The notes under the pieces: generated by a model
Database searches by the model: none
Told to the model about the DNA's origin: nothing
The model's input: the letters and a program-made list of their open reading frames with translations, nothing else
Translations under genes and position numbers: made by a program
DNA from: Candidatus Hydrogenedentota bacterium
Lineage (GTDB): Bacteria > Hydrogenedentota > Hydrogenedentia > Hydrogenedentales > SLHB01
Direction of reading: 5' to 3'
Assembly (NCBI GenBank): GCA_016215105.1
Contig: JACRLJ010000125.1
Coordinates: 1 to 45,044, forward strand
Length of the DNA: 45,044 nucleotides
Shown here: one piece after another, positions 26,853 through 37,084 of the stretch
Layout of the letters: the number at the start of each line of letters is the position of its first letter
How positions within the stretch are numbered: the first letter of the stretch is position 1

Positions 26853-27836
26853 ATGCCACACATCGTCGTGGAGAACCTTGCCAAGACGTTTCAGGTCGCT
26901 GAACGCGATCCCGGGGTCTGGGGCGCCATCCGCGGTCTCGCAAAGCGGCGCTACCGCACCGTACACGCCCTGGACGGCGTCTCATTCTCTATCGAGCCCG
27001 GCGAACTCGTGGGATACATCGGCCCGAACGGGGCGGGTAAATCCACTACCGTCAAAGTCCTCGCGGGTATTCTGGTGCCCGACTCCGGCCGCTGCGAGGT
27101 CCAAGGCCGAGTCCCATGGAAGGATCGCATCGCCCACGTCGCCGATATCGGCGTCGTGTTCGGTCAACGCACCCAATTGTGGTGGGACCTGCCGGTCATC
27201 GAGTCCTTCGACCTCTTGCGCGACATCTATCGCGTGTCCAAATCTGACTACACCCGCGCGCGCGACGAATTGATCGCGATGCTCGATATCGAACCCATCC
27301 TCGATGTGCCGGTTCGCCAACTCAGCCTCGGCCAGCGCATGCGCTGCGACCTGGCCGCCTCATTGCTGCATTCGCCGTCCCTGCTATACCTCGACGAGCC
27401 GACCATCGGACTCGACGCCGTCAGCAAACTCGCCGTGCGCGAATTCATCACCCGCCTGAATCGCACGCGGCAAGTCACCGTGATCCTCACCACGCACGAT
27501 ATGGACGACATCGAGGCGCTCTGCACGCGCGTCATGGTCATCAACGAGGGCAAGATACTCTCTGACGGAACGCTCGCGGATTTGCGCGCCGGTGTTACAA
27601 AGGAGCGCTGGCTCATCGTGGACTTGGTTAATGGGGAGGACACCGTCACCGATTCGGCGGCCAACGTGGTTCGACGGGACGGCGCCCGCGTGACATTGGC
27701 GTTCGATCCGGAGCGCGTTCCAACGCCGGAGCTTATTCGCCGCGTAACGGCGAACCACGCCATCCGCGACCTCTTCGTCGAGAACCCGCCCATCGAGGAG
27801 ATCATTGCCCGTATCTACCGGGAGACCAAGTCATGA
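26853..27836 (+). CDS. ABC-2 type exporter ATP-binding protein
   Basis: ATPase subunit of 327 residues of the COG4586 type. The Walker A motif GPNGAGKST is near residues 53-61, an FGQ Q-loop-like motif follows, the signature is LSLGQRMR, Walker B is LLYLDEPTIGLD, and the switch His is in LTTHD. A C-terminal extension of about 90 residues (YRET end) is typical of this subgroup. The next two genes encode the membrane subunits, the first overlapping by four bases. Such exporters move drugs, lipids or peptides. It lies 2 kb downstream of the graspetide locus, so peptide export is conceivable but unsupported. Confidence 0.92.
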   Translation: MPHIVVENLAKTFQVAERDPGVWGAIRGLAKRRYRTVHALDGVSFSIEPGELVGYIGPNGAGKSTTVKVLAGILVPDSGRCEVQGRVPWKDRIAHVADIGVVFGQRTQLWWDLPVIESFDLLRDIYRVSKSDYTRARDELIAMLDIEPILDVPVRQLSLGQRMRCDLAASLLHSPSLLYLDEPTIGLDAVSKLAVREFITRLNRTRQVTVILTTHDMDDIEALCTRVMVINEGKILSDGTLADLRAGVTKERWLIVDLVNGEDTVTDSAANVVRRDGARVTLAFDPERVPTPELIRRVTANHAIRDLFVENPPIEEIIARIYRETKS

Positions 27837-28624
27837 GACCCTATTGGGCGATGCTCAGCGCGCGGTTCCGCACGCTCCTCCAATACCGCGCCGCCGCGTT
27901 GGCCGGATTCGGAACGCAACTCTTCTTCGGTGTGGTAATCGTCATGACCTATCAAGCCTTCTACTCCGCGAACACCACGCCCCAGCCCATGTCGCTTGAA
28001 CACGTGGTGAGCTATATCTGGCTCGGGCAGGCGCTGTTTGCCTTGATGCCCTGGGCCCCGGACGCCGATATCCGCCTGCTTATACGGACGGGCGGCGTGG
28101 CCTACGAACTCCTTCGGCCCGTCAACGTATATTGGCTCTGGTTCAGCCGCGCCTTGGCGCGCCGCACCGCCCCCACGGTCTTGCGGTCAATTCCCATGTT
28201 CATTACCGCGATGCTGCTTCTCGGCTTGCAGCCCCCGGCATCGCTCGCGAGCGGGTTAGCTTGGGGTATGGCGACGGTGTGCGCCGTGCTTCTGGCCTCC
28301 GCGATCGCGACTATCTTCGGGATCGGTATGATCTGGACCATCTCCGGCGAAGGCCTCCATCGCTTGGTGTCTCCGCTCGTGATGCTCCTCTCGGGAATGT
28401 TGATTCCCCTTCCGCTGATGCCCGCATGGTCGCAGACCTTCCTCCGGGTACTGCCGTTTCGCGGCCTCGCGGACATCCCGTTCCGCCTTTACCTCGGGGA
28501 CATCCCCCCGTCCAGCGTCGGACCCATGCTTCTTCACCAATTGACGTGGGTCGCCCTGCTCGCCCTCTTCGGGCATTGGTTGTTGAGCCGCGCAATGCGC
28601 CGGCTCGTGGTGCAAGGAGGGTAA
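27833..28624 (+). CDS. ABC-2 type exporter permease 1
   Basis: Membrane subunit of 263 residues, COG4587-like, with six hydrophobic segments spread from residue 20 to the C-terminus. The ATG overlaps the ATPase stop (ATGA). Recognisable stretches are FGTQLFFGVVIVMTYQAFYS early, SYIWLGQALFALMPW and LVMLLSGMLIPLPLMPAWSQ, the family's fourth to fifth helix region. It works with the ATPase and the second permease as a heterodimeric channel. Confidence 0.88.
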   Translation: MRPYWAMLSARFRTLLQYRAAALAGFGTQLFFGVVIVMTYQAFYSANTTPQPMSLEHVVSYIWLGQALFALMPWAPDADIRLLIRTGGVAYELLRPVNVYWLWFSRALARRTAPTVLRSIPMFITAMLLLGLQPPASLASGLAWGMATVCAVLLASAIATIFGIGMIWTISGEGLHRLVSPLVMLLSGMLIPLPLMPAWSQTFLRVLPFRGLADIPFRLYLGDIPPSSVGPMLLHQLTWVALLALFGHWLLSRAMRRLVVQGG

Positions 28625-28626
28625 CC

Positions 28627-29430
28627 GTGCGCAACGCGCTCGTTCTCTACTTCCAATACGTTGGTGTCTCAATCCGTGGACAACTCCAGTACCGCGCTTC
28701 ATTTGTCATGCAGTCCATCGGCGAATTCTGGGCCCACGTCACGGAATTCATCGCGATCTGGGCGCTCTTCCACCGCTTCGGCAGTATTGGCGGCTGGTCT
28801 TTGCCGGAGGTAGCGCTGCTCTACGGTCTGGTCAACACCCAATGGGCCATCACCGATATGATCGGGCGCGGATTTGATGCGTTTGACACTATGGTCAAGT
28901 CCGGCGATTTCGACCGCGTTCTTCTGCGCCCCCGCGCCACCACCCTGCAGTTGGCTGGTCTGGAATTCACCTTGCGGCGTTTAGGCCGGCTGGCGCAAGG
29001 ACTTGCAATATTGGTCTGGGCCCTGGTGGCCTTGAATATCCTATGGACCCCGGGAAAGGTGGCGCTGTTCGTGCTCGCGGTGGCTGGGGGCGTATGTCTA
29101 TTCTACGGTCTGCTTGTAGTTCAGGCCACCTTGTGCTTTTGGACCGTCGAATCCCTCGAGATCATGAATGTATTCACCTACGGCGGATTGGAGACCGCCC
29201 GCTATCCCGTGAGTATCTACCGCCCCAATTTCCGCCGCTTCTTCACCGCCGTGGTCCCCTTGGCGTGCGTGACATATTTCCCGGCGCTTGCGCTGCTGGG
29301 GCGCGCCGACCCCCTCGGCTCAACGCTGGTATTCCAATACGCGGCGCCGCTCGCCGGTCTGATCTTTCTTCTGGTGTCACTTCAGGTGTGGAAGTTCGGC
29401 GTGCGCCACTATCAGTCGACGGGAAGTTAA
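28627..29430 (+). CDS. ABC-2 type exporter permease 2
   Basis: Second membrane subunit, 267 residues, COG3694-like. The start GTG 28627 is set by AGGAGGG six bases upstream and lies two bases past the first permease. Six hydrophobic segments are visible; VALLYGLVNTQWAITDMIGR and the GDFDRVLLRPRATTLQ loop are typical of this family. Longer upstream frames merely shadow permease 1. Its stop overlaps the stop of the convergent PilZ gene by four bases. Confidence 0.9.
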   Translation: MRNALVLYFQYVGVSIRGQLQYRASFVMQSIGEFWAHVTEFIAIWALFHRFGSIGGWSLPEVALLYGLVNTQWAITDMIGRGFDAFDTMVKSGDFDRVLLRPRATTLQLAGLEFTLRRLGRLAQGLAILVWALVALNILWTPGKVALFVLAVAGGVCLFYGLLVVQATLCFWTVESLEIMNVFTYGGLETARYPVSIYRPNFRRFFTAVVPLACVTYFPALALLGRADPLGSTLVFQYAAPLAGLIFLLVSLQVWKFGVRHYQSTGS

Positions 29431-34254: not shown

Positions 34255-35040
34255 CTATGGGCCTTTGCTCGTATCCACCGGCGCTTCCGCAGCCGGCGTC
34301 TGACCCGCCTGACCCGTCTGACCTGTCGGACCTGTCGGACTGGCCGGCGCCGCCGGAGCAGCGCTTGGCGCAGGGACCGGCGCGACCGCCCCGCCTTCCG
34401 GCGCGCCGTCTTTCTTCGCCTTTGGCGGCTCGTGGCCCTCAATCATCGTCGTGCTCTCTTTTGACTCGTGCGGCAGCGTGTGTTCTTGCGGGGTTTCCTT
34501 CGGACTTAACGGCCCGCCTTCCTTGCCGGCGCCCAGTCTTGCGTTCTTGATTACGTAGAAGAACTTGGTGTTCGGCCCTTCGTTCAACGTCAATGTTCCG
34601 TTAATGAGCACCGGTTCCTTATACAGACTCTTGACCACTTCGCCCTCGGCCATCTGCACCAATACCACGTCGTGCATCGGCGGTTGCTGGCAGAAATAGC
34701 ACTCGAGCGGTAACGGCAGAACCATGAATTCCTTGATGTTCCGGAATTTATCCAGGCCCACCATGAAACCAATGATGTCCACATGGGTGTCGCGGTACGG
34801 CAACAGCTTCGGATCGAAGGTCGGACCGCTGCGCACGCCTCCTGTCGTCTTCTGGAGCAAGTTCCAGGGGAGCAGCTTGAGTCCCTGCCCGATTCGTTCT
34901 TGCTCTATTCGCTTGCGGAGCTTCTCCATCCGATCCCTGAGATCGAGGCGCCCGCATTGCATGTTCACAAAAAGCAGGGCGAGCAGCAACACGACGATGC
35001 CACCGATAATTCCAATTTCTTTCGCGGCGCGTATTCGCAT
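34255..35040 (-). CDS. DUF3299 membrane-anchored protein with a TGQ repeat tail
   Basis: Protein of 261 residues. A single hydrophobic anchor (IGIIGGIVVLLLALLFVNM) at about residues 8-27 is followed by a DUF3299 domain: VDIIGFMVGLDKFRNIKEFM then LPLECYFCQQPPMHDVVLVQ (family VPYFGACIHVPPPPPNQ), a likely metal-binding beta barrel. The C-terminal third is low complexity, rich in Lys, Glu, Pro and Ala, with SPTGPTGQTGQAGQTPA coded by a 9-bp tandem repeat. It follows an ABC permease and ATPase of LolC/LolD type. In Vibrio the zinc-regulated zrg locus pairs a DUF3299 gene with an ABC transporter, so metal handling is a reasonable inference. Confidence 0.82.
   Translation of the reverse strand: MRIRAAKEIGIIGGIVVLLLALLFVNMQCGRLDLRDRMEKLRKRIEQERIGQGLKLLPWNLLQKTTGGVRSGPTFDPKLLPYRDTHVDIIGFMVGLDKFRNIKEFMVLPLPLECYFCQQPPMHDVVLVQMAEGEVVKSLYKEPVLINGTLTLNEGPNTKFFYVIKNARLGAGKEGGPLSPKETPQEHTLPHESKESTTMIEGHEPPKAKKDGAPEGGAVAPVPAPSAAPAAPASPTGPTGQTGQAGQTPAAEAPVDTSKGP
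34300..34344 (-). repeat. 9-bp tandem repeat in the DUF3299 gene
   Basis: Five imperfect 9-base units (CTGACCCGC, CTGACCCGT, CTGACCTGT, CGGACCTGT, CGGACTGGC) encode on the minus strand the tripeptide-like TGPTGQTGQAGQ stretch. A related run follows aroK at 31649-31680. Confidence 0.6.
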
Positions 35041-35186: not shown

Positions 35187-36488
35187 CTATAATTCCGCCA
35201 AGTCGCGCGCCACATCCGTCCGATAGGCCTGCCACGCCGGAATGATTCCCGCGAGAATTCCCACGCAGGCCACTGTCGCGAACGCCTGCAACAGTTCGCT
35301 CGGCACGTGAAACGCGTTTATGATTAGCCCGTATTGCTGTTCCAAGAACAGTCCAAAGCCCCAGCAAGTCACGATGCCCAACACCCAGCCGCAACCAATG
35401 CCGAGAATCGTAACTAGAAACGCCTCAATGATCACCGAGCCGAAGATCTCCGGCTTCGAGGCGCCCAGGGCCCGCATAATGGCCATATCGCGCTTACGCT
35501 GCAGGATCGAGAGATAGAGGCCAATCAGTATGGACAGCGCCGAGATCACTACGACCAGATACCCGATCCCCAGCAACACCGCCTTCGCAAACCCGAGCAC
35601 TTGATCGTAAAGGTTCTTGATCTGTGTCAACGGATTCACCGCCATCGCGTTATAGGCCGTATTCACGTAGTCAATGAATTGGAACCGCAAGGCCGGACTC
35701 TGTAGCTGCACCAGCACCGCGGTTACGCCTCTGTCCATGCCCCGCTCATCTTCATCATCGTCTGCATGCGGCGCGGCGGCCGGAGATGCCGGGGTCCCCA
35801 CGGCCGTGGGCGTGGCCGGCTCCTCATCGTGCTTGTGAATTTCCCACACCGACGATAGCGGGCAAAAGATGGCCCGATCATTGGGGGTGCCGGCGCTCTT
35901 GAGTATCCCCACGACCGTGTATGAGACATGCTTGTGCCCTTCGACCTGCGCGCCCGGCGCCTCGATCAACCCGTGTGTTCCGTAGAACTCCTTCCCCAAA
36001 GTCAGCCCCGTCTCCCTAGCGACCTCACTACCGATCACGGCCTCCATATCGTGCTCGAATGCCCTCCCTTGGGCCAGAACAAACGGATGCTGCTCCTCGT
36101 CGGTTATGGGATCGGTCCAGGTGTACGAAAGCAACTCCGGTGTCGTACCGACAATCCGATACCCCTGGTACGTGTCCCCCAACCCAATCGGATACGCGTG
36201 CGCCACGTCATCATGCGTCCGCAACGCCTCGTAGTCCGCGTACTTGATGTTGCCCGTCGGCGTGTCCATGAAGTACAGCGTGCTCAACACCAATTGAAGC
36301 GGACTCCCCTTGGCGCCGATCACCACGTCAAACGACTGTCCTTCTTCCTCGAAGCGGCGCTTCGTCTCCTCGCGAAGCGAAAGCACCGATGCGATAAGAC
36401 CAACCGCTAGCGCGACCGACAGGATCGTCATGCTGGTCGTCAGCTTGCGGTTCCACAGGTAACTCCAGGCGATAAACCAGATACTCAT
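35187..36488 (-). CDS. MacB/LolC-type ABC transporter permease
   Basis: FtsX-family permease of 433 residues: one N-terminal helix (TMTILSVALAVGLIASVLSL), a periplasmic domain of about 220 residues, and three C-terminal helices. The FtsX domain includes LLGIGYLVVVISALSILIGL, LQRKRDMAIMRALGASKPEI and FLVTILGIGCGWVLGI. The periplasmic part contains a short Asp/Glu-His-rich stretch, APHADDDEDERGMD, that could bind metal. It overlaps the ATPase gene by four bases. With DUF3299 downstream, a metal- or lipoprotein-related role is likely. Confidence 0.9.
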   Translation of the reverse strand: MSIWFIAWSYLWNRKLTTSMTILSVALAVGLIASVLSLREETKRRFEEEGQSFDVVIGAKGSPLQLVLSTLYFMDTPTGNIKYADYEALRTHDDVAHAYPIGLGDTYQGYRIVGTTPELLSYTWTDPITDEEQHPFVLAQGRAFEHDMEAVIGSEVARETGLTLGKEFYGTHGLIEAPGAQVEGHKHVSYTVVGILKSAGTPNDRAIFCPLSSVWEIHKHDEEPATPTAVGTPASPAAAPHADDDEDERGMDRGVTAVLVQLQSPALRFQFIDYVNTAYNAMAVNPLTQIKNLYDQVLGFAKAVLLGIGYLVVVISALSILIGLYLSILQRKRDMAIMRALGASKPEIFGSVIIEAFLVTILGIGCGWVLGIVTCWGFGLFLEQQYGLIINAFHVPSELLQAFATVACVGILAGIIPAWQAYRTDVARDLAEL

Positions 36489-37084
36489 AGGGTCACGTCC
36501 TTCACCAGCCCATAACAGTCGAAGCGCTCGGGCAGCCGTGCGGCAATATCCTGCTCATGAGTGACGACCAGGAGGCTCACCTCCTCTTCGCGGCCGGCGA
36601 CGACAATCTTCTGATGATTCGCAAGCGCGCGCGCAATCGCCACGCGCTGGCGTTCACCAACACTCATCGTGGACGGTTTGCTGTGCAGGCGATGCTTCAA
36701 ACCCACGCGTTCCAGCAAGTACGACGCCCGTGTTTTCCATTCCGGCTTCGGCCGCGTGTCGCTAAAGCGCATGCCCAGCATCACGTTCTGCAACGCCGTG
36801 AACGGCGCCAACAAGTTGAACGTTTGGAACACAAACCCCAGACGCTCCCCGCGGAACTGATCCAGCTTGGCCTCGCTCAGACCCTGAATCTCGACTCCGT
36901 CAACGGTGATTGCGCCCTCATCCGGACGCAGCAGCCCCGAAATCAGGTTTAGCATGGTGGATTTGCCGCAGCCGCTCGGGCCCCACAGCGCCATGTGAGC
37001 GCCCCGTTCCAGTTGAAAATCCTTACAGAAATATTCGACCCCCGGTCCGAGCCGCCGGCGGACGTTTTTCATCTCTATCATCAT
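36485..37084 (-). CDS. LolD-type ABC ATPase lacking Walker B and D-loop
   Basis: ATP-binding subunit of 199 residues for the adjacent FtsX-type permease. Walker A is GPSGCGKST (35-43), Q-loop FVFQTFN (84-90), and signature MSVGERQRVAIARALA (140-155). The usual segment after KIVVA (DEPTxxLD and about 15 more residues) is missing: the frame runs from KIVVA straight to GREEEVSLLVVTHE, which holds the switch His. The gap is about 22-24 codons, in frame, at about 36590-36600. Without Walker B and the catalytic Glu, hydrolysis should be lost. The protein is correspondingly shorter than the usual 220-230. Either a true degenerate ATPase or an assembly collapse. The start ATG 37084 follows AGGAG at seven bases. 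Confidence 0.85.
   Translation of the reverse strand: MMIEMKNVRRRLGPGVEYFCKDFQLERGAHMALWGPSGCGKSTMLNLISGLLRPDEGAITVDGVEIQGLSEAKLDQFRGERLGFVFQTFNLLAPFTALQNVMLGMRFSDTRPKPEWKTRASYLLERVGLKHRLHSKPSTMSVGERQRVAIARALANHQKIVVAGREEEVSLLVVTHEQDIAARLPERFDCYGLVKDVTL

Follow-up and report, generated by a model that had tools for sequence, protein, structure and literature searches.

The window, by which we mean the whole stretch of 45,044 nucleotides analysed here, carries on its minus strand a conserved cluster of three genes, for an ABC transporter ATPase, its partner permease and a DUF3299 protein. The nearest named relatives of its genome (G000; 171 contigs totalling 6.68 Mb, 95% complete) are in Candidatus Hydrogenedentota. 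The ATPase gene lacks 66 bp that intact orthologues have, and the features needed to follow the argument are these:

36485–37084, minus strand: ZrgC-like ATP-binding subunit of an ABC transporter, 199 aa, 22 codons missing internally
36956–36982, minus strand: Walker A, GPSGCGKST
36647–36664, minus strand: signature motif SVGERQ, a family-wide SGGQ variant found also in intact orthologues
36594–36595, minus strand: junction of the deletion or skip (G|GC, hybrid Gly codon), 66 bp short relative to orthologues, 0 bp microhomology
36554–36565, minus strand: switch region VTHE, including the H-loop His
35187–36488, minus strand: partner permease, MacB-like periplasmic core and FtsX domain, 433 aa, intact and normally conserved
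34255–35040, minus strand: ZrgE-like DUF3299 protein, encoded by the third of the clustered genes

The system in the window resembles the ZrgB/ZrgC/ZrgE core of the Zrg zinc transporters. Vibrio ZrgABCDE is a zinc transporter in which zrgC, zrgB and zrgE encode an ABC ATPase, a permease and a DUF3299 protein, and the genes for the ATPase, the MacB-like permease and the DUF3299 protein lie adjacent here as they do there (PMC9817125, PMC9820375). The permease is alike too, with few transmembrane helices and a large MacB-like periplasmic domain, whereas the window ATPase differs in having no Walker B. The binding protein ZrgA (DUF2796, PF10986) was found above the Pfam cut-off in none of the 68 genomes of the phylum, which leaves zinc, a putative substrate by analogy with Vibrio, as a guess. 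A search of the DUF3299 protein against the PDB gave nothing, and a literature search on zinc in Hydrogenedentes found nothing relevant. Permeases of some relatives (L009, 3362–4705; L011, 2775–4046) contain a His/Asp-rich periplasmic stretch, which the window permease has only in a weak version; His-rich stretches of this kind are suggestive of a metal substrate.

The first-pass annotation had called the ATPase LolD-like, a label that holds for the superfamily but not for LolD itself. TIGR02211 is the best-scoring NCBIfam model, and the ATPase belongs to the same MacB/LolD/FtsE branch. However, the window ATPase reaches 150.7 bits and an intact orthologue 193.2 bits, both under the LolD equivalog cut-off of 307.75 bits; linkage to LolC/LolE is likewise lacking, the permease scoring 51 bits on the lolCE model (cut-off 362), and the linked genes encode a MacB-like permease and a DUF3299 protein. 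LolD was rejected as an identity on these scores and neighbours. The MacB-type exporters share the MacB_PCD and FtsX domains of the permease, but here ATPase and permease are separate genes, and the scores fall far under the model cut-off of 966.

The reading frame at 36485–37084 contains no stops, and its product reads ...MSVGERQRVAIARALANHQKIVVA-GREEEVSLLVVTHE..., with KIVVA joined straight to GREEEVSLL; that KIVVA runs directly into GREEEVSLLVVTHE had been read correctly from the start. GPSGCGKST, VFQTF, MSVGERQ and VVTHE are all present. In terms of the family PF00005, the protein thus retains Walker A, the Q-loop, the signature (as MSVGE) and the H-loop, as the first-pass annotation had claimed, and lacks the Walker B Asp, the catalytic Glu and the D-loop; the segment gone extends from the Walker B Asp to the D-loop and the next helix. 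Pfam ABC_tran still scores the shortened ATPase at 102.9 bits, in a match that ends at profile position 131 of 137. Orthologues throughout the phylum have MSVGE or LSVGE in place of the usual LSGGQ signature (L009–L011, L089–L117).

The size of the gap was measured against intact orthologues within the phylum Candidatus Hydrogenedentota. These read ...ALANxQKIVVADEPTGSLDPKTAxxVMDLLLEMCxEExVTLLLVTHD... and bear out the earlier claim that a Walker B/D-loop segment is lost in frame. The distance from SVGE to VTH[DE] is 59 residues in them and 37 in the window ATPase, a shortfall of exactly 22 codons (66 bp), where 22–24 codons had been estimated. In 33 comparisons the best breakpoint followed the first base of the Walker B Asp codon 29 times; the junction accordingly splits the hybrid GGC codon between 36594 and 36595, within the interval 36580–36610 given earlier. 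The junction is in frame and mid-codon, with 0 bp of homology between its two ends, and no Ns stand at the junction itself. No second copy or fragment of the missing segment was found elsewhere in G000, the best matches being paralogues with at most 49% identity.

How unusual is such a gap? A frame-independent pattern scan (AIARAL, a short gap, then VTH) of the 68 genomes of the phylum returned shortened spacing at two sites only, the window ATPase and its orthologue in G010, against normal spacing at ~196 sites, a sum of per-genome counts that includes at least two chance matches. The gap is therefore not chance variation. About 50 orthologues in the phylum have the segment intact, and the scan found no shortened site in 50 genomes from other groups. 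The single-copy ABC ATPase LptB, taken as a control, scores above cut-off in 56 genomes, in each of them at full length. Walker B is kept in every other G000 ABC ATPase that was read, and skipping of this motif as a common fault of the G000 assembly was rejected for this reason.

The G010 orthologue (L120/L089; G010:C22:76254–76838) has a different in-frame gap, of 60 bp, over the same motif. It reads ARALA-AGVMDLLLELC, with 20 codons lost, the whole Walker B strand included, and its junction homology varies between 0 and 4 bp with the relative used. The orthologue in G021, a congener of G010, is intact (L124).

Around the gap the window ATPase is well preserved. Only F19Y and T193S depart from near-invariant columns, a third departure, D165G, being the junction codon, and intact orthologues vary as much; in the permease, 2 of 112 near-invariant columns are changed, in G000 and in G010 alike. 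Intact relatives show no higher conservation in the remainder of the ATPase or in the permease, and the damage is therefore recent or technical. Gradual pseudogene decay was rejected, both proteins being otherwise normally conserved.

Could the shortened protein work? Hydrolysis is not expected of ABC ATPases without the Walker B Asp and the catalytic Glu. The first-pass annotation had expected none here, an expectation we uphold with the Walker B Asp, the catalytic Glu, the D-loop and the following helix all gone. Its further suggestion, that the transporter might work differently, found no sign of an alternative mechanism, AlphaFold losing most of the Walker B strand (reduced from 5 to 2 residues) and the next helix (171–187 of the intact model). 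Mean pLDDT of the shortened chain is 88.6, with a dip to 60 at residues 161–170, the junction, and pTM is 0.75 compared with 0.89 for the intact model, from an input alignment of intact relatives that biases the shortened model upwards, towards the normal fold. A literature search on Walker B deletions found nothing relevant. One might still imagine a subunit of a transporter or sensor that functions without hydrolysis, or in regulation, despite the loss of Walker B, the D-loop and the adjoining helix, and that arose convergently in two genera; the appearance of in-frame gaps in this orthologue on two independent occasions, the conservation of the other motifs and of the permease, and the high mean pLDDT would fit such a subunit. 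The predicted losses of strand and helix, the pLDDT dip and the drop in pTM speak against it, as do the loss of the Walker B strand itself in G010, the intact gene in the congener G021 and the lack of any compensating changes seen. Because the Walker B Asp and catalytic Glu are gone and the predicted fold is damaged, we regard an active variant as very improbable.

A different kind of evidence comes from G006 (L119, G006:C7:4000–9000), where a scaffold gap of two Ns stands directly after DEPTGS of the orthologous ATPase. The left flank of this gap ends in GTGGCCGACGAGCCCACCGGCAG, and the two sides share an exact repeat of 23 bp; the right flank is chimeric, beginning with a SGGQQQRVAIARALVNDPAVI-type (SGGQ-type) ABC fragment, which looks like a second ABC ATPase, and continuing with this 23-bp stretch. 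The break at DEPTGS on a shared 23-bp repeat shows that the Walker B motif can break metagenome assembly. In G013 and G053 the contig stops ~30 residues short of the Walker B region, as is expected by chance in such fragmented genomes. In G000 itself, 20 consecutive Ns close to where another ABC ATPase gene begins (L141, G000:C12, 589–608) indicate that the contigs of this assembly are gapped scaffolds.

We lean towards an assembly misjoin as the source of the 66-bp gap, the organism probably having an intact Zrg-type ATPase gene. The assembled contig would then skip the highly conserved Walker B/D-loop stretch of an ordinary gene, and a tangle like that in G006, followed by joining or gap closing, may have produced the window junction. 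A misjoin is favoured by the place of the skip, at a proven trouble spot for assemblies, and by the lack of any other decay, which is expected if the gene in the cell is intact. The second, differently placed skip of the motif in G010, beside the intact gene of its congener, also counts for a misjoin, and so does the presence of at least one run of 20 Ns in the G000 assembly. Several observations count against it: a plain k-mer collapse needs a flanking repeat, and there is none (0–4 bp in G010); both gaps are multiples of three, a one in nine event by chance; no Ns mark the site; and the motif was not skipped in the ~196 sites of the phylum, the 56 LptB genes and the other G000 ATPases read. 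The first-pass annotation had held that finding the segment in related genomes would point to an assembly collapse; the segment is indeed in nearly all relatives and one assembly is broken at the motif, but simple repeat collapse was rejected for want of flanking repeats at the junction.

What favours real DNA is that the junction is blunt and in frame and that genes with the same motif are intact elsewhere. A real, recent 66-bp in-frame deletion would make the ATPase of this strain a null allele and the transporter inactive, with the gap in G010 an independent loss. The permease start overlaps the ATPase stop (ATGA), and on this reading, which we entertain as a possibility of the second rank, an in-frame gap would preserve the translational coupling with the permease gene. 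The clean junction without Ns or flanking repeat, the absence of a second copy of the segment in G000 and the unaffected other NBDs of the same assembly would all agree with a deletion. The orthologue is undetected in some relatives, for example G002, G019 and G023, so the system may be dispensable. However, neither ATPase nor permease has decayed further, a random null deletion would rarely strike the same motif twice and both times in frame, and the motif is the very one at which the G006 assembly broke. The weights behind our wording of the three readings are judgements and were not computed, and they leave a small remainder unassigned.

The gap in the sequence is thus confirmed, and the surprising biology probably does not hold. 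If the gap is an artefact, short in-frame Walker B gaps in metagenome-assembled genomes escape gene callers and HMM cut-offs, and the ABC_tran score reported above is a warning that one could take them for degenerate ATPases. With a real deletion, the product is a dead ATPase and the transporter is off, and the same transporter was recently switched off in two genera. The mechanism of ABC proteins would be affected only if the shortened protein were demonstrated to work.

Elsewhere in the window, an ABC-2-type exporter set of an ATPase and two membrane proteins occupies 26853–29430, with Walker B intact.
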